Source of the DNA: Georgenia sp. SYP-B2076
GTDB taxonomy: Bacteria > Actinomycetota > Actinomycetes > Actinomycetales > Actinomycetaceae
Assembly: GCF_003991205.1 (NCBI RefSeq)
Contig: NZ_RXOZ01000002.1
Coordinates: forward strand, 1-64,000
Length of the DNA stretch: 64,000 bases
Direction of reading: 5' to 3'
In this document: positions 4,617-16,189 of the stretch, one piece after another
Position numbering within the stretch: the stretch's first letter is position 1
Layout of the letters: every line of letters starts with the position of its first letter
Notes under the pieces: generated by a model
Database searches by the model: none
Told to the model about the DNA's origin: nothing
What the model saw: only the letters and a program-made list of their open reading frames with translations
Position numbers and translations under genes: made by a program

Positions 4617-6515
4617 GTGGGCAACGTCCGTCTTGCTGCTCGAGCGCTCGATGAGGGCACTCGCAGTGGCTTCTCAGTGATCGAGGACGCGCTGGAGAAT
4701 TACCTGGTGGTCGAGGGTGCAGGGCGGCCCGGTCCAGGGGAGCGCCGATCCTGGCGCGGTAGCCTGCCAGTTCTCGCTCGGGATCTCGCCGACGCGGGGC
4801 TTTCCGACGTTGAAGTCATCCTTGAGTACCGGCTTCCTCTGTCCAGCAAGCGCGCCGACGCGATCCTCGCCGGCATCCATCCCAAGACCGGACGCCCCAG
4901 CTACGTCGTCGTCGAGCTTAAGCAGTGGAGCGCGGCTACGCGCTGGGAGGACAGTGACACCCTCGTAGACGTAACGGCGGCGCCCTACCGGCCCTCGCTG
5001 CACCCGGGGCTGCAGGTGGCCGGCTATGGCGACTATCTGCGCGATTTTGTGCGCGTGCTGGCCGACGAACCGGATCCGCTTGCCGGGGTCGCGTACCTGC
5101 ACAACGCCACGGACGGCACGGTCGCCGATCTGTGGGGGCGTCCCCAGACACCTCTCAGCCGCGTCTTTACAGGACAGCGACGGGGTGACTTCATCGAGTT
5201 CCTCCGCTCGCGGCTCGCACCCGAGTCGGGACGCAGCGCAGCCGACGTTCTGCTCTCATCCTCGATCGCTCCCTCCAAGCAGCTGCTCAGCGTCGCGGCA
5301 AAGGAGATCCAGGAACGCGAGCAGTTCACCCTGCTGGATGAGCAGCGCGTGGCGTATGAACTCGTCCCGCGCGCCGTGGAGAGAGCACGACGGGCCGACC
5401 AGAAGAATGTCGTCGTCGTGACGGGCGCGCCCGGGAGTGGCAAGAGCGTTATCGCACTGTCGTTGCTTGGTGAGCTCGCCCGGCAAGGCCGCACTGTCCT
5501 GCACGCGACAGGGTCCAAGTCGTTTACGCAGACGATGCGTGAGGTCGCCGGCAAGGGTTCGATTCGCACGAAGAGCCTTTTCAAGTACTTCAACTCCTTC
5601 ATGGAGGCCGAGCCAAACGACCTCGACGTGGTCGTCCTCGACGAGGCCCACCGGATCCGTGAGAAGTCGGTGAACCGATACACGCCCAAGCAGATCCGGG
5701 AACGCGCCCGCCCCCAGGTGGAGGAACTGCTCGACGTCGCGCGGGTGCCGGTCTTCCTGCTGGATGAACACCAAGTGGTGCGGCCCGGGGAGATGGGGAC
5801 CGTTGCGGACATCAAGGCGCATGCAGCTGCCCGTGGCATCCCCGTCACGCAGGTCGATCTCAATGGGCAGTTTCGGTCGGGTGGTAGCGACAAGTACCTC
5901 GAGTGGGTGCACGTGCTCCTCGGGCTCCGGAATGAAGTGGCCACTGACGGCGAGAGCACGCCGCCTGTCTGGCGCGACGAGCCCACGTTCTCGGTGGACG
6001 TCGTCGACTCGGTTGGAGAACTTGAGGCACGGCTGCGCGCCCATTTCCATGCGGGCGAGAACGCCCGGATGACGGCCGGCTACTGCTGGCCGTGGAGCAA
6101 CCCCAACAAGGATGGGTCGCTGGTTCCAGACGTGCAGATCGGTTCGTGGTCGAAGCCGTGGAACGTCAAGAGTGATCGGGCGATCGGTGGCGCGCCGCCG
6201 TCCTGGTTGTGGGCATACGACCCCGCCGGCTTTGAGCAGGTCGGGTGCGTGTACACCGCGCAGGGCTTCGAGTACTCGTGGAACGGGGTCATCATCGGTC
6301 CGGACTTGGTGTGGCGGGACGACCGATGGGTCTCGCGACGCGAGTTCAACAGAGATCCGGATTTTAGGTCGCGCAAGACAGTTGACGACGCCACTTTCGA
6401 CCGTCTCGTTCGGCACGTATACAAGGTGTTGATGACGCGCGGCCTGCGAGGGACCCTGCTTTACTCGACCGACGAGGAGACCCAGGCGATGCTCCGGTCT
6501 GTAACCAATCCCTAA
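4617..6515 (+). CDS. DUF2075 (Schlafen-3-like) nuclease-helicase
   Basis: A 632-residue cytosolic ATPase. The N-terminal 200 residues contain KRADAIL and, about 15 residues on, YVVVELKQW; an Asp followed by Glu-x-Lys is the layout of a PD-(D/E)XK nuclease site. The P-loop GAPGSGKSVIALSLL is near residue 270 and the Walker B box DVVVLDEAHRIRE near 338. QFRSGGSDKYLEWVHVLL and AQGFEYSWNGVIIGPDLV further on are typical of DUF2075, the helicase domain shared with Schlafen group 3. GTG at 4617 follows AAGGGACAATC. Relatives occur beside restriction and other defence genes, but here the neighbours are an orphan RHH gene and a frameshifted protease, so a defence role is only possible. Its stop overlaps the convergent protease frame by three bases. 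Confidence 0.85.
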   Translation: MGNVRLAARALDEGTRSGFSVIEDALENYLVVEGAGRPGPGERRSWRGSLPVLARDLADAGLSDVEVILEYRLPLSSKRADAILAGIHPKTGRPSYVVVELKQWSAATRWEDSDTLVDVTAAPYRPSLHPGLQVAGYGDYLRDFVRVLADEPDPLAGVAYLHNATDGTVADLWGRPQTPLSRVFTGQRRGDFIEFLRSRLAPESGRSAADVLLSSSIAPSKQLLSVAAKEIQEREQFTLLDEQRVAYELVPRAVERARRADQKNVVVVTGAPGSGKSVIALSLLGELARQGRTVLHATGSKSFTQTMREVAGKGSIRTKSLFKYFNSFMEAEPNDLDVVVLDEAHRIREKSVNRYTPKQIRERARPQVEELLDVARVPVFLLDEHQVVRPGEMGTVADIKAHAAARGIPVTQVDLNGQFRSGGSDKYLEWVHVLLGLRNEVATDGESTPPVWRDEPTFSVDVVDSVGELEARLRAHFHAGENARMTAGYCWPWSNPNKDGSLVPDVQIGSWSKPWNVKSDRAIGGAPPSWLWAYDPAGFEQVGCVYTAQGFEYSWNGVIIGPDLVWRDDRWVSRREFNRDPDFRSRKTVDDATFDRLVRHVYKVLMTRGLRGTLLYSTDEETQAMLRSVTNP

Positions 6516-9114: not shown

Positions 9115-9369
9115 GTGGCGCTCAGCATCAAGGACCCCGAAGCGGACAGGTTGGCGCGGGAGATTGCGGCGCGGACCGGTTAGTCGCTCAACGGTGCCGT
9201 GGTGACGGCGCTCCGGGAGCGGCTGGACAGACTGAGCAGGACGAGGAAGTCCCTGCCGCTCGCCGCAGAGCTGGCGACCATCCGCCGCCGCTGCGCCGCC
9301 CTGCCGGTGCTCGACGGCCGGACGCCGGAGGAGATCCTCGGCTACGACGTGCATGGCCTGCCGCGCTGA
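9115..9369 (+). pseudogene. VapB-type antitoxin interrupted by a stop codon
   Basis: The frame from the GTG at 9115 reads VALSIKDPEADRLAREIAAR, then Thr-Gly, then TAG at 9181-9183. It continues [19 protein letters not shown] and onward to [14 protein letters not shown] before TGA at 9367-9369. The whole is a normal Rv0623/VapB-type antitoxin of about 84 residues except for the amber codon, which replaces what is usually Glu (GAG) in RTGES. A shortened product could start at the GTG codons near 9199 and would keep the toxin-binding tail without the DNA-binding strand. The stop overlaps the vapC ATG (TGATG), the usual translational coupling. Confidence 0.8.
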
Positions 9370-9770
9370 TGGCGATCGAGACCTCCGCCCTGGTCGCGAT
9401 GCTGAGCGACGAGCCCGAGGCGGAGGCATTCGAGGCTGCTGTCGAAGCCGGCTCGGTGCGAGTGATGTCCACCGCATCGTTCCTCGAGACCGCAATCGTG
9501 GTCGAAAGTCGCTTCGGCGAGCTTGGCGGACGCGAGCTCGATCTGTGGATGCACCGCGCCGAGGTCGAACTCGTGCCGGTCGACGCCGAGCAGGCCCAGC
9601 TCGCCCGAGCCGCGTACCGGCGCTACGCCAGGGGCCGCCACCCTGCCGGCCTGAACTTCGGCGACTGCTTCGCCTACGCACTCACCGCCGTCACCGGTGA
9701 GCCGCTGCTCTTCAAAGGAAAAGACTTCTCCGCGACCGACGTCCACTCGGTCATGGCTCACCCGACCTGA
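9369..9770 (+). CDS. vapC: VapC-type PIN-domain toxin, altered active site
   Basis: A 133-residue PIN-domain protein, normally a Mg2+-dependent endoribonuclease held inactive by VapB. The family fold is complete: MSTASFLETAIVVESRF and GRHPAGLNFGDCFAYALTAV hold the conserved Glu and the C-terminal acidic pair. LLFKGKDFSATDV is the usual end. The first catalytic aspartate is replaced: the N-terminus reads MAIETSALVAML where VapC proteins have I-D-T/A-S-A. A Glu there may weaken or abolish cleavage. Because the partner antitoxin carries a nonsense codon, loss of toxicity would be expected for the gene to persist. Translation is coupled to vapB. Confidence 0.8.
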   Translation: MAIETSALVAMLSDEPEAEAFEAAVEAGSVRVMSTASFLETAIVVESRFGELGGRELDLWMHRAEVELVPVDAEQAQLARAAYRRYARGRHPAGLNFGDCFAYALTAVTGEPLLFKGKDFSATDVHSVMAHPT

Positions 9771-11897: not shown

Positions 11898-12890
11898 TCA
11901 GACCGGCTCGAGGGTGCGCCCGACTTCGAGGGCCGCGTCAATCAGCCCCTCGGCGACATCGATGGTCTGACGGTCGCGGATACGGCACTCGACGCCGAAT
12001 CGCGCGTGAGCCGAGAGCGTTGCGATATCCCGGAGATGACCGGGAATCTGTGGTCCGGCAAGGCGCACGGAGACCTTGCCGGACCAATGCACATAGGCGA
12101 TGGCGGAGGATTGGCCGTCGACCGTGAGGTCGTGGACGCGTAGATAATCCGTCGGGGTTCCGTCACGACGCTTCCCGGGGAGGAAGACGACCTCCTCGCC
12201 GTCATATCGATCGATGAGCTCGCGCAGGAGGGCCGCGATCGGTCGGGCGTGCTGATCGATCAGCTCACGGACGGATGCCGCCGCAGGTTCTGTCATCGAA
12301 GGAATCGGGTGAGTGTCTGCAATCCGCGGCTGGAGGGTTTGAGTCACTGGCCCCGCTTCCGCTCGTGGCCAAGGAGATTTGAACGGCGCGCCGGGCGCGT
12401 GGGCAGGCTCCTCGCTCAGCACATCCACCACCTCGATCCCGGCCTCCGTGTAGCGGTCCCATCCTCGGCCGTCGCCGAGACGGCCATGTTCTTCGACCGT
12501 CACGACACAGCCCACGCCGTAGGTGTCCAGAAATGCCCAAAGATCGCCCTCTGACCATGCGGTGCGCGCGAGCAGCTGGTCGATCAACCAGGCACGCGGC
12601 CACACGTGCTCGTGATGAACATCGGCTGTGCGCCAGACTTCCATCGCCGCTCTCGACCGGTACCTGATGTGGTACTTCGAATACGGCGAAACGCCGGTCG
12701 CCTCGGTCCATTTCCACAACGCGATGGTGAGCATGTGGCGGCGGTGGGCGACGGACACCTGGCTGGGGAGCTCAAGCAGATGTCGGACGATCGCGTAGGC
12801 GCTAATCCGTCGTCCTCCCATCCCGGGGTCCGGCAGGTAGGGCCTGTCCAGCGCGATAGCGGTGTTCGTCGGCATCGGCGGCTTTCTCAT
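11898..12890 (-). CDS. Unknown protein with HHEHVWP motif, possible third component of TIR locus
   Basis: A 330-residue protein that I cannot assign to a named family. The N-terminal half is rich in aromatic and basic residues and contains ADVHHEHVWPRAWLIDQLL, followed by CVVTVEEHGRLGDG. This spacing of His-Glu-His and Glu-His resembles HNH-like proteins found beside conflict genes, but no full HNH motif is evident. The C-terminal half (about 200-330) is a separate alpha/beta region with FLPGKRRDGTPTDYLRVHDL. It is divergent from the TIR gene across 113 bases, a layout in which two transcription units often share regulation. Start codons at 12890 (used here) and 12875 are both possible; neither has a strong ribosome site. 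Confidence 0.6.
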   Translation of the reverse strand: MRKPPMPTNTAIALDRPYLPDPGMGGRRISAYAIVRHLLELPSQVSVAHRRHMLTIALWKWTEATGVSPYSKYHIRYRSRAAMEVWRTADVHHEHVWPRAWLIDQLLARTAWSEGDLWAFLDTYGVGCVVTVEEHGRLGDGRGWDRYTEAGIEVVDVLSEEPAHAPGAPFKSPWPRAEAGPVTQTLQPRIADTHPIPSMTEPAAASVRELIDQHARPIAALLRELIDRYDGEEVVFLPGKRRDGTPTDYLRVHDLTVDGQSSAIAYVHWSGKVSVRLAGPQIPGHLRDIATLSAHARFGVECRIRDRQTIDVAEGLIDAALEVGRTLEPV

Positions 12891-13003
12891 CTCGGTGTCT
12901 TGTCTCGCAATCGCGACATCGGTGGCGATTCCCGAGCAGTTGGAGCCTACGGAGGTTCTCGGGCCCTAACCTGCGTATCAGCAGCCAACCGAAGGAGCTC
13001 ACG

Positions 13004-13897
13004 TTGCCGAAGCATCGCGTCTTTATCAGCCACAGCAGCACGGACGCGGAAGTAGCCCTGTCCACGGCCCAGGCACTCGAGGCATCCGGCGTGCCGGCTT
13101 GGGTCGCGCCGCGAGATGTCCCAGCAGGCGCGGACTTCATGACCTCGATCATGCACGCCATCGGTGCATGCGACGCGCTCGCCGTGATCCTCTCTCCCGA
13201 CGCCGTGGCGTCCCCTCACGTGCTGCGGGAGGTCACCGTAGCGGTCGCGAATCACCGCCCACTGTTCGTGTTTGCGACCGACCGATCGACGGTGAACTAC
13301 GCATCGCTGCCACCGAACTGGCAGTTCATGCTCGCCGTCGCCCAGATCGCTCCTCTCACGAGCGCGCAATTGGCTGCCGGCGTCATGGCGGCGGCGCTTC
13401 CAGGAGCCCGCACGTCGTTGCCGGGAGCGGGGCCCGCAGCGACGAGCGAGGTTCCGTCCACCGGCCAACCCGATCAGAACGTGTTCGCCAGCGTCGCTGG
13501 CGACGCGGCGGCGGCCGCCGCACGTGCGGTCGACCAGCGTCTGACCTTGGCAGAGTCCCTCAAGGAGCTCCGGGCCGCACCGGCGATCGCGGAGCTTCTC
13601 GGCACGCTCGCCGTCAGAGCGACCATGCATCACCGATATCTGGCCTCAGCCAAGTACCTGACGCTGCACCCACAGCGCGGTGGCCCGGTGAGCGCCTACG
13701 TGAAGCGGTCGTCCATCTCCATCCCCATGTGGGAAGCCGACGCGGCGGTGCTGATGTCGGAGGGCATCGGCGAGCTCGAGCGGAAGCAAGGGCGGCGTCA
13801 CTACGTCCGGGTGCGCGCAGAGGACCTGGGCACCGACGTTCAGCGTGATCGGGTGGAGGATGCGATTTCCCGGGCCCTCGCCAGTCAGGAGAACTGA
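13004..13897 (+). CDS. TIR-domain protein, putative NAD+-consuming effector or signal enzyme
   Basis: A 297-residue protein. Residues 3-125 form a TIR domain: HRVFISHSSTDAEVALSTAQ is the first strand and box 1, VPAWVAPRDVPAGADF the second conserved loop, and ILSPDAVASPHVLREVTVA carries Glu76, at the position of the catalytic glutamate of NAD+-cleaving TIR enzymes. A flexible linker (about 130-165) precedes an unrecognised alpha-helical domain with YVKRSSISIPMWEADAAVL. TTG at 13004 is the start because GAAGGAG lies seven bases upstream. Three bases separate its stop from the next gene, so the two are surely cotranscribed. The pairing with a membrane RyR protein suggests a nucleotide-signalling or membrane-killing conflict system. 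Confidence 0.85.
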   Translation: MPKHRVFISHSSTDAEVALSTAQALEASGVPAWVAPRDVPAGADFMTSIMHAIGACDALAVILSPDAVASPHVLREVTVAVANHRPLFVFATDRSTVNYASLPPNWQFMLAVAQIAPLTSAQLAAGVMAAALPGARTSLPGAGPAATSEVPSTGQPDQNVFASVAGDAAAAAARAVDQRLTLAESLKELRAAPAIAELLGTLAVRATMHHRYLASAKYLTLHPQRGGPVSAYVKRSSISIPMWEADAAVLMSEGIGELERKQGRRHYVRVRAEDLGTDVQRDRVEDAISRALASQEN

Positions 13898-13900
13898 GGA

Positions 13901-16189
13901 ATGACTTCCGGGCGCGGGCGGGGCTCGACTCGGACGGTCGTCAGGCGCCGTTGGCCCTTCATCTTGGCGGTGGCGACATTCGTCGTCGTCACCGGTCTCA
14001 TCGCTGCGGCCAACGGACTGGTCGCCGGCGCGTTACCGGCTGCGGTCGCGCTCGCCTATGGGGGCACGATCGCGATCACGCTCGCCACGTACCGCCATCT
14101 CGCTCGGGGATCGGAACGGCACCTGTCGGTACTCGCCGCCGGCCTCGGCGTCGCCGGAACGACGATCCTCGCCGCCGGAGCGTACTGGCACTGCTCTGCG
14201 GGACAGCTGCCGGTGCTCACCCAGACCGTATGGATCGCTCAGCTCTTCCTCGGTGCCCCGGAGAATCCGTTCGGTAGCGCACCGGGCTGCCCCGCCCAGC
14301 AGCCCTTGGCCCTGCTCCTGGCGAGGAGCCTCGCGCTCGGCGTGGTGTTCCTGGGCGCTGCCAAACTCGTCCTTTCCCTCTCACGCCGGTACGTGACGAG
14401 CATGCGCATCCGATCCGCCCAGGACCTGGTCCTTGTCCTCGGCGCGGAGAGCGCCGGCGACTACGTCAGCGCCGTGGGCCGGGCAACCGGTCCGGGTACG
14501 ACGACCGCCGCCGTCATCGACCAGCCGCCGACCGGGCTGTTAGAGCGCTCGCAGGAAGTACTAGCCATTGACGGAGCCGTTGACGATCCGTCGTTCCTTG
14601 AGCGGCTGCTGCCGCTACGTGGAGCGTCACGGATCTCGTCGGTCCATTTGGTGGACCCAGACCCGGAGACAAACCTCCGCCGACTGGACGTGCTCCGCAC
14701 CATCGTCACGCCTCCTCGCCGAGGTGAGGCGCTGCGCGGAGTCGTGCGGATCGACGACCCGTGGGCGGCGGAGGAGTGGCGCCGCGGAGCGCTCTCTGAC
14801 GACGGCTGGGTAGTGGACAGTCTCAGCACGTACGAGGTCACGGCGCGCGCCCTGCTCAGGCAGACGGCTGGCGCAGATCACGACCACATCGTCGTGAGTG
14901 GTTCGGGTCCGCTCGCGCTCGCACTTTGCGCCGCAGCGGCGCAGGCGATGCGCGAACGCAAGGCCATCCGCGACCTCGTCACTGACGATTACGCGGACGA
15001 GGGGACGACGACCGACACGGCGCGGTTGACGGTGCTTGGCCCTCAAGCGGGCGACCTTACCGATAACCACGCGGTTCATCAGCGACGCTATGGCAACTCG
15101 TCCGAGACGCTGGTTGTCATGGAGACACCCGTCACCCGCGCGAGCGTGGAGCGGGCGGTCTCCGGGGCGCGGTCACCGGTCGTGATCTTCACCGAGGAGG
15201 CAGGGACGCTCCCCGCCGAGCTGGGCGCCCGGTATCCGTGGGCCATCTACGCCTACAGCTCCGCGGCCACTGGAATCGCCAAGCGGGCACTCGTGGGGCA
15301 GGTTCGATACTTCGGACTTGCCTTGTGGCACGACGACGCTGATGCCTCCGACACCTGGGCGCGGCTCGCGGAGCGGGCGCACAAGCTGTACTTAGCTCGG
15401 TACGGGGTTGGCCACTCGACGGCCGCTCGGCCGTGGGCGGAGCTGAGCCCCTTCTACCGCGGGAGCAACATCCGTCAAGTCACCACCGTGCTGGGCGGCG
15501 CCGCCAAGGTGGGGATCTCGTGGGGGCCAGTCCAGGAAGGCCCGGCCGGGGTTGCCGTCGTGACGCCTGAGCAGATCCGTGCGCTGGCGGAGACAGAGCA
15601 CGAGTCCTGGTGCTCGTACTACTTACGGCACGGCTGGAAGGCGGCAATGCACCGTGACGACGCCATGCGCACGCACCCCGCACTCGTGCCTTGGTCGGAA
15701 CTTCCGCCGGAGGCCAGAGACAAGGCCGAGAAGGGCGTCCGTGACGCACTCGTCATGTTGGACGCCTTCGGCTACCGGCCGCACCAGGCTGCCGCGGGGC
15801 CATGGCGCCGGTTCGTCCGAAGCGGCCGGGTGAAGGCTCAGCGACAGTCGACCGACTTCGCATGGCGGACGGACGACGGGCAGCGACTTCAGGGCCGCGC
15901 GGGGGATTGGTTGGTCACGGGGCCTGACGGGCGGCAGTGGTCCATCACCGACGTAAAGCTGCGCGCGACGTACACGTACGTCGAGGGCGAGACCTGGGCG
16001 CGCGTCGGCTCCGTTCTCGCGCGACCGGCCTTTGCTGGTGAGCGGATCGAGACTCTCGAGGGCGGGTACGTCGCCGTCGCGGGCGACTGGGTCGTACAGG
16101 ATGACGACGGTGCGCAGTGGGCAGTCCCGGCCGAGTACTTCGCCATCAACTATGTGGAGGTGCCGGCGGAGCCTGCGAAGACGGGGTGA
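13901..16189 (+). CDS. Membrane protein with Rossmann-like, RyR and repeated C-terminal domains
   Basis: A 762-residue protein. Four hydrophobic helices lie in the first 160 residues (about 18-36, 41-62, 75-95 and 136-158); the loop between helices 3 and 4 contains Cys98 and Cys130. Two Rossmann-like segments follow, at about 173-290 (DLVLVLGAESAGDYVS) and 330-470 (HIVVSGSGPLALALCAAAA), as in TrkA/RCK proteins. Residues about 560-630 match an RyR domain: TEHESWCSYYLRHGWKAAM, RDDAMRTHPALVPWSELP and ALVMLDAFGYR. The C-terminus (652-757) has two similar units around AGDWLVTGPDGRQWSI and AGDWVVQDDDGAQWAV. RyR domains are predicted to bind nucleotide-derived ligands, so this could be the membrane receptor for a product of the TIR enzyme. 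That link is inference. Confidence 0.8.
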   Translation: MTSGRGRGSTRTVVRRRWPFILAVATFVVVTGLIAAANGLVAGALPAAVALAYGGTIAITLATYRHLARGSERHLSVLAAGLGVAGTTILAAGAYWHCSAGQLPVLTQTVWIAQLFLGAPENPFGSAPGCPAQQPLALLLARSLALGVVFLGAAKLVLSLSRRYVTSMRIRSAQDLVLVLGAESAGDYVSAVGRATGPGTTTAAVIDQPPTGLLERSQEVLAIDGAVDDPSFLERLLPLRGASRISSVHLVDPDPETNLRRLDVLRTIVTPPRRGEALRGVVRIDDPWAAEEWRRGALSDDGWVVDSLSTYEVTARALLRQTAGADHDHIVVSGSGPLALALCAAAAQAMRERKAIRDLVTDDYADEGTTTDTARLTVLGPQAGDLTDNHAVHQRRYGNSSETLVVMETPVTRASVERAVSGARSPVVIFTEEAGTLPAELGARYPWAIYAYSSAATGIAKRALVGQVRYFGLALWHDDADASDTWARLAERAHKLYLARYGVGHSTAARPWAELSPFYRGSNIRQVTTVLGGAAKVGISWGPVQEGPAGVAVVTPEQIRALAETEHESWCSYYLRHGWKAAMHRDDAMRTHPALVPWSELPPEARDKAEKGVRDALVMLDAFGYRPHQAAAGPWRRFVRSGRVKAQRQSTDFAWRTDDGQRLQGRAGDWLVTGPDGRQWSITDVKLRATYTYVEGETWARVGSVLARPAFAGERIETLEGGYVAVAGDWVVQDDDGAQWAVPAEYFAINYVEVPAEPAKTG

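Follow-up and report, generated by a model that had tools for sequence, protein, structure and literature searches.

Thoeris is a two-gene system in which a TIR enzyme (ThsB) is encoded beside a separate nucleotide-sensing receptor-effector (ThsA). Caspase-like parts also occur among the described effectors of TIR signalling. Those of Thoeris carry SIR2-SLOG or macro domains (PMC11204291). A second point of comparison comes from phages, whose RyR-domain proteins bind or cleave 2'/3' cyclic ADP-ribose (2'/3'cADPR) according to a preprint of May 2026 (PMC13232231). There, RyDEP is presented as a phage glycosidase that cleaves the molecule, with His75, Trp78 and His100 as ligand residues and His75-Asp117 as catalytic dyad; other homologues sequester it, and the ligand residues are stated to be conserved in animal ryanodine receptors (RyRs). 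This work concerns two adjacent genes in a stretch of 64,000 nucleotides of Georgenia sp. SYP-B2076 (the whole stretch is hereafter called the window), encoding a TIR-domain protein (13004..13897, + strand; 297 aa) and a membrane protein with a RyR domain (13901..16189, + strand; 762 aa; hereafter the RyR protein). On balance, the pair is probably an immune-type signalling operon with two components and a Thoeris-like mode of action, with the TIR protein as the enzyme and the RyR protein as the receptor-effector.

The likeness to Thoeris lies in the presence of two genes, a TIR enzyme next to a separate receptor-effector endowed with a nucleotide-binding type of domain, and in the Glu that the window TIR carries at the catalytic position. 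Unlike the Thoeris effectors, however, the RyR protein has no SIR2, SLOG or macro domain in Pfam, and it is composed instead of RyR, RCK-like and membrane parts. The search against defence-system models that had been proposed in the initial annotation, a reading of the letters made before this analysis, gave weak Thoeris matches for the window TIR (PADLOC ThsB at 2.2e-4; NCBIfam ThcB4 with 19.9 bits vs a cut-off of 220) and none for the effector (0 of 23 family members in PADLOC, 0 of 11 in NCBIfam). Nor was any described defence system with exactly this pair known to that annotation. In agreement with this, no bacterial TIR-RyR pair appeared in the titles and abstracts of the literature searched, although the Yirmiya 2025 preprint, which lay outside that search, may contain it; the nearest paper, the RyDEP preprint (PMC13232231), does not mention one in the parts of its text considered here. 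The system would represent TIR signalling with a new receptor-effector, its priority being uncertain.

Coupling of the TIR and RyR genes

The TIR open reading frame (ORF) begins with a TTG start preceded by GAAGGAG, and its product matches Pfam TIR_2 over residues 6-88 (2.1e-16; 61 bits vs a cut-off of 28). The TIR domain covers approximately residues 3-88 and is followed by a C-terminal part of unknown family. At the catalytic position lies Glu76, and this column is occupied by Glu in 27 of 27 aligned TIR partners. The TIR stop codon ends at 13897 and the ATG of the RyR protein stands at 13901, leaving the three-base gap that had been read initially; the TIR and RyR signatures that a domain search was expected to find were both recovered with Pfam.

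Conservation of the pairing was assessed in relatives of the RyR protein collected by their own similarity, TIR genes being disregarded at that step (loci are designated here by L numbers). With a TIR profile grown from the TIRs of these same loci, to which five RyR-adjacent partner sequences were added before the count, a TIR ORF was found within 8 kb at 26 of the 27 long-family loci, window included; an earlier profile had given 25 of 27, missing L097, whose TIR then matched Pfam TIR_2 at 4.5e-7. When L042 is included, which was counted apart as a shorter and distant type, the figure becomes 27 of 28, and the gap is below 700 bp at 22 of these 28 loci. In contrast, the same profile found a TIR ORF at only 2 of 23 control loci with distant RyR homologues only, of which 18 were measured for distance and five (L061-L065, with no RyR ORF at E 1e-6) were assessed by TIR scan only, some of the control contigs being short (L054, 7.0 kb; L055, 3.8 kb; L063, 5.1 kb). 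TIR_2 itself is rare, with 22 matches across 11 genomes, and in five of these 11 the sole match adjoins the RyR gene. The chance of meeting a TIR within 8 kb is estimated at ~1% per genome (about two TIR genes per 5 Mb), or 2% for a genome with six. The pairing of TIR and RyR genes is not due to chance, and the random neighbourhoods that the initial annotation had named as grounds for abandoning its interpretation were not observed. Gene arrangement varies among the loci, comprising TIR-then-RyR, RyR-then-TIR, divergent and convergent orders.

Architecture and probable ligand site of the RyR protein

The series of parts first read in this protein, namely four membrane helices, two Rossmann-like segments, a RyR domain and two C-terminal units, is borne out by AlphaFold2 (AF2) modelling, hydropathy and Pfam. 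The RyR domain (15578..15778, + strand; Pfam range, residues 560-626) is matched at 5.4e-12, with 46.2 bits vs a gathering cut-off of 27.4, and all 23 family members match Pfam RyR (PF02026) with E 0.1 or better, the best value being 8.1e-13. It is homologous to Repeat12 of the animal RyRs: the family profile finds the RyR1 chimera 6uhi at 2.4e-23 and animal RyR2 and RyR3 chains at approximately 1e-16 to 1e-15. Unlike the animal proteins, whose matched chains are of 3500-5000 aa, the window protein shares with them by sequence the RyR domain alone, and the pore part does not match.

The comparison with RyDEP was made with the 138-residue sequence taken from the record of its phage, mycobacteriophage DyoEdafos. 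Both proteins have the RyR/R12 domain, and His75, Trp78 and His100 of RyDEP correspond to H567, W570 and H592 of the window protein with identical spacing, these positions being kept in 22, 23 and 23 of 23 family members, respectively (L041 has Trp for His75). Unlike RyDEP, the window protein has Ala609 at the position of the catalytic Asp117, and its domain is embedded in a long membrane protein beside a TIR gene. This assignment is the same whether one counts from the His or from the last helix's conserved Gly, and both counts likewise agree for L002 (Thr), L033 (Ala) and L090 (Val). An insertion makes them diverge in the remaining 19 members; over the whole family, the position is non-acidic in 23 of 23 when counted from the Gly side and in 20 of 23 when counted from the His side. 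L057, a distant homologue with no TIR neighbour, has Asp at this position. Because the ligand residues are kept and the catalytic Asp of RyDEP is lost, these alignments fit with the idea that the RyR domain would bind the signal without cleaving it and would act as a receptor, most firmly in the window protein and its nearest relatives. The early suggestion that RyR is a domain that binds TIR-made nucleotides has a precedent in the phage RyR-domain proteins, as reported in PMC13232231.

The remaining architecture was derived from two AF2 models, one of the window protein built with 23 sequences (mean predicted local distance difference test score, pLDDT, 79.6; predicted template modelling score, pTM, 0.68) and one with the relative L040 as first row (pLDDT 83.0, pTM 0.72), which show the same domain order and membrane layout. 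The membrane part (13952..14413, + strand; residues ~18-171), delimited by AF2, hydropathy and alignment, contains the predicted transmembrane (TM) helices TM1 (18-37), TM2 (45-67), TM3 (72-95) and TM4 (136-171), and a short helix (104-117) lies between TM3 and TM4, flanked by the conserved C98 and C130 and present in both models, in a region of low pLDDT. This short helix is a candidate for the pore helix of a TM-pore helix-TM unit such as RCK-gated channels have. Family-averaged hydropathy peaks near residues 28, 54, 84 and 152 agree with the four AF2 helices; in the window sequence alone, peaks at 28, 84 and 145 pass the same threshold, the second helix stays below it, and one further peak passes it at 338, in the soluble part.

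Behind the membrane part come a first Rossmann/RCK domain of TrkA_N-like type (14426..14824, + strand; residues ~176-308; AF2, Foldseek and hhalign) and a second, RCK-like one (14885..15313, + strand; residues ~329-471; AF2 and Foldseek). Foldseek comparison of the window model with the PDB retrieved RyR1 and RyR Repeat12 (6.1e-5 and 7.1e-5), the TrkA gating ring (1.2e-4), the potassium channel entry 8hir (7.0e-4) and MthK (1.2e-3), and that of the L040 model retrieved human Slo1 (1.2e-7), GsuK (2.3e-7), TrkA (1.5e-6) and MthK (4.5e-5). GsuK, MthK, Slo1 and the TrkA gating ring, the best structural matches beside RyR, likewise have tandem Rossmann domains of gating-ring type behind a membrane part; unlike them, the window protein shows no K+ filter signature, has the extra TM1-TM2 and adds the RyR domain and PGDYG-like units. 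Proteins that combine TrkA_N and RyR in one chain exist in other Actinomycetes (L042, L057), and hhalign aligned the RyR family with L042 at a probability of 98.8 over window residues 102-619. They differ in being shorter (632-641 aa), in having no PGDYG match and in belonging to the distant loci that mostly lack a TIR, to which L042 is an exception. Pfam TrkA_N is matched at E 0.1 in 11 of 23 relatives (best 0.0066). Because a sequence search of residues 141-473 alone against the PDB gave a single match, at 0.75, the RCK assignment rests on the folds together with hhalign. In the two models the protein has tandem RCK-type Rossmann domains, in line with the RCK likeness noted initially.

At the C-terminus lie two PGDYG-like beta units (15806..16159, + strand; residues ~636-753; AF2 and Pfam). 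The window protein matches Pfam PGDYG weakly here, at 0.0052 and below the cut-off; of the 23 family members, 22 match with E 0.1 or better, the lowest value being 1.1e-7. In L094 (7728-10312) and L095 (7845-10240) the effector is split: the PGDYG-like units have an ORF of their own, which shares four bases with the end of the channel-RyR ORF. This suggests that these units may act as a separate subunit. In L041 (1550-4833) the effector contains an extra RyR-like stretch, and a small separate RyR-like ORF (160 aa) adjoins it.

Taken as a signalling operon, the pair could work as follows. Once triggered, the TIR enzyme would convert nicotinamide adenine dinucleotide (NAD+) into an ADP-ribose (ADPR)-type signal, most likely a cyclic ADPR isomer. 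The RyR protein would combine the roles of receptor and effector: the signal would bind, uncleaved, to its cytosolic RyR domain, and the resulting movement would pass through the tandem-RCK gating ring to the four-helix membrane part, which may open or deform. The cell would then depolarise or leak, and growth of the infected cell would stop.

TIR partners and competing explanations

The TIR partners of the RyR protein show at least seven architectures. The window partner combines TIR with a tail of unknown family, and that of L002 carries a ConA-like domain. A PknH_C domain accompanies TIR in 11 proteins (L037, L038 and nine more, with that of L085 being divergent), and in L035 it is encoded by the next gene; PknH_C points to mycobacteria. 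A TIR-nSTAND1-WD40 arrangement is present in L034, L036, L042 and L096, nSTAND1 being listed for all four, and L091 and L041 were placed in this class by TIR similarity and length only. The remaining arrangements are TIR-NACHT (L093), TIR-LRR (L090), TIR-WD40 (L095) and, in L097, a small TIR followed by asparaginase-like and DUF4062-STAND-TPR genes. Because many partners carry extracellular-type or STAND, NACHT, LRR or WD40 parts, the trigger need not always be an intracellular phage, and the extracellular-type domains make sensing from outside possible. A constant receptor combined with lineage-specific TIR enzymes is the logic of a signal-and-effector system. Partner classes cluster by branch in a tree of 24 effector proteins. 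Neither this tree nor one of the alignments includes L093-L095, in which the effector ORF is partial or split, and L032 is in the tree and absent from the structure alignments. Partner swapping on this tree was considered as evidence and dropped, given that eight labels (one being 'none', and two being given separately to TIRs with no known extra domain) require 7 changes, the arithmetical least.

This diversity bears on a rival explanation, in which the pair would serve envelope or stress signalling, with TIR receptors that sense cues outside or inside the cell and a channel-like RyR protein that alters ion flow or turgor rather than acting as an immune effector. Such a role, compatible with the signalling part of the preferred reading, seems rather unlikely. 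It would account for the extracellular-type domains of many TIRs, PknH_C and ConA-like, before which a hydrophobic stretch was seen (by eye only), and it draws on the fact that the defence libraries do not recognise the effector, which also counts against an immune function. However, it sits poorly with a patchy distribution (one of nine genomes of the genus, the window's own, and three of 396 of the order, one of them through a C-terminal-unit match only), with the STAND, NACHT, LRR and WD40 partners and with the DUF4062 and patatin neighbours. Patchiness, partners and neighbours of these kinds are typical of conflict systems. By analogy with such systems, phage defence is the likely function of the pair.

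It is improbable that the TIR kills simply by depleting NAD+, with the RyR protein as its upstream sensor or activator that reports, for instance, membrane or nucleotide changes. DUF4062 genes near two relatives (L032 and L097) speak for such an activity, since DUF4062 is described in PMC13174449 as a TIR-like NADase family that depletes NAD+. Nevertheless, in most scanned relatives the TIR itself has a candidate sensor part; what stays constant is the RyR protein, whose ligand site is likely to be of ADPR type. Decidedly improbable, too, is a negative regulator, that is, a membrane-bound sink or hydrolase that would remove the TIR product and avert self-intoxication. There is phage precedent for both activities, in the RyDEP cleavage and the sequestration by other homologues reported in PMC13232231. 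The replacement of the RyDEP catalytic acid by Ala609, with non-acidic residues in most or all members depending on the count, argues against it, as does the fact that a sink needs neither tandem RCK domains nor a four-helix membrane part, and the variation of TIR partners around a constant RyR protein is what would be expected of a common downstream receptor. Finally, although the genes lie in an accessory stretch of somewhat low GC (0.687 vs a mean of 0.720, with lower values at 24 of 304 window positions), chance adjacency or co-travel in defence islands is hardly credible in view of the difference from the control loci, the short gaps, the rarity of TIR genes and the three-base spacing.

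Several observations weigh against the signalling operon itself. Its support comes from sequence and models. As for the pairing, L092 has no TIR in range (the second copy in its genome, L093, has a TIR neighbour), the TIRs of L032 and L094 narrowly miss the Pfam cut-off of 28 bits, with 27.3 and 20.9, and the PknH_C rows, 12 of the 24 in the tree, form one clade. At the ligand site, L038 and L091 have Asp and L096 has Glu at the Asp117 position when counted from the His side, L042, although it adjoins a TIR, retains the Asp and has Ser at the His100 position, and our own count places Asn at the Asp117 position in the first repeat of one animal chain, at variance with what is stated in PMC13232231. 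As regards the channel, pLDDT before TM4 is mostly 56-73, the Foldseek TM-scores for RCK proteins are low (query 0.14-0.27, target 0.22-0.45, the aligned ranges not being displayed; query scores are 0.11-0.27 across both lists), Pfam TrkA_N does not match the window protein itself at E 0.1, and a reading of the alignment by eye showed no TxGYG-like K+ selectivity filter motif in residues 118-135. Because of these low TM-scores, the low membrane confidence and the lack of a TrkA_N match and of a filter motif, the protein is here called channel-like and not a channel, and ion conduction is a putative property of it. Altogether, the initial interpretation holds as regards the domains, the RCK likeness and the neighbourhoods, and needed correction as regards the trigger, which may be other than intracellular phage in some relatives, and the inclusion of a further gene, considered below.

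Neighbourhood, distribution and significance

The locus as first delimited began at 11898 and took in a divergent gene (11898-12890, - strand; 330 aa), which was rejected as a component. It is an orphan without Pfam match, it retrieved only itself at E 1e-8 among 297 genomes of the order, and no similar gene was present in the relatives' neighbourhoods collected at that stage; it is probably a mere neighbour, outside the system. A few kb upstream of the pair, the window contains a Schlafen group 3 helicase-type protein (4617-6515; Pfam 1.5e-83) and a PIN-domain gene (9369-9770; Pfam 4.9e-17), possibly further accessory or conflict genes. The right flank from ~16494 is common to the window and two same-genus genomes, whereas no counterpart of the left flank was located at the corresponding place in these two genomes, so that the insertion edges were not found. 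In relatives, patatin-like phospholipase genes stand between the RyR effector and a long TIR gene (L034, 5171-6205, Pfam 1.7e-30; L041, 6217-7359, Pfam 6.7e-26), and in L033 (8587-10166), from the same order, the TIR frame enters an overlapping region beside a DeoR-like ORF, followed by a PfkB-like kinase gene (read by eye). The Rhodococcus qingshengii plasmid NZ_CP054208.1 has a DUF4062 gene in divergent orientation to the RyR gene and an annotated TIR gene (27.3 bits vs 28) 3.5 kb on.

Beyond the genus and order, RyR effectors were found in a family (22 of 401 genomes) in which PknH_C is frequent among the TIR partners, and a phylum-wide search gave 5 of 198 genomes, none of them outside the window's class. 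Among plasmids there is one record with a RyR-protein match. One scan of IMG/VR viral contigs gave 10 candidate stretches, in which no effector relative was confirmed. Phage records gave two matches to the whole protein, in the RyR domain only, and 23 records at E up to 1 with the RyR domain as query, including the DyoEdafos RyDEP at 0.9. In that phage (L098, 461-3138) the RyDEP gene stands between annotated ribose-phosphate pyrophosphokinase and nicotinamide phosphoribosyl transferase genes. The TrkA_N-RyR protein of L057 (7974-11600) adjoins a PP2C phosphatase-like gene, and neighbours of similar size, not domain-scanned, occur in L059 and L061; L057-type proteins and the PP2C-like gene are possibly a separate RyR signalling pair.

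If the signalling operon is correctly interpreted, a RyR receptor joined to a RCK-type membrane protein would constitute a new class of TIR effector, and the RyR domain would gain a positive role in bacterial immunity, beyond phage counter-defence. Such a receptor would also suggest a reason for the presence of RyR-domain proteins in phages of Actinomycetes, and the old question whether cADPR-type molecules act on RyR domains could be put to a direct test with a small soluble domain. More tentatively, the RyR protein may be a bacterial cADPR-type-gated channel, in which a TIR-made cyclic ADPR isomer opens a RyR-RCK channel that serves as a shared exit for many kinds of TIR sensors in Actinomycetes and is perhaps a natural target of the mycobacteriophage RyDEP, whose RyR domain could derive from such a receptor. 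This would provide a prokaryotic counterpart of the long-debated link between cADPR and the ryanodine receptor in animals.

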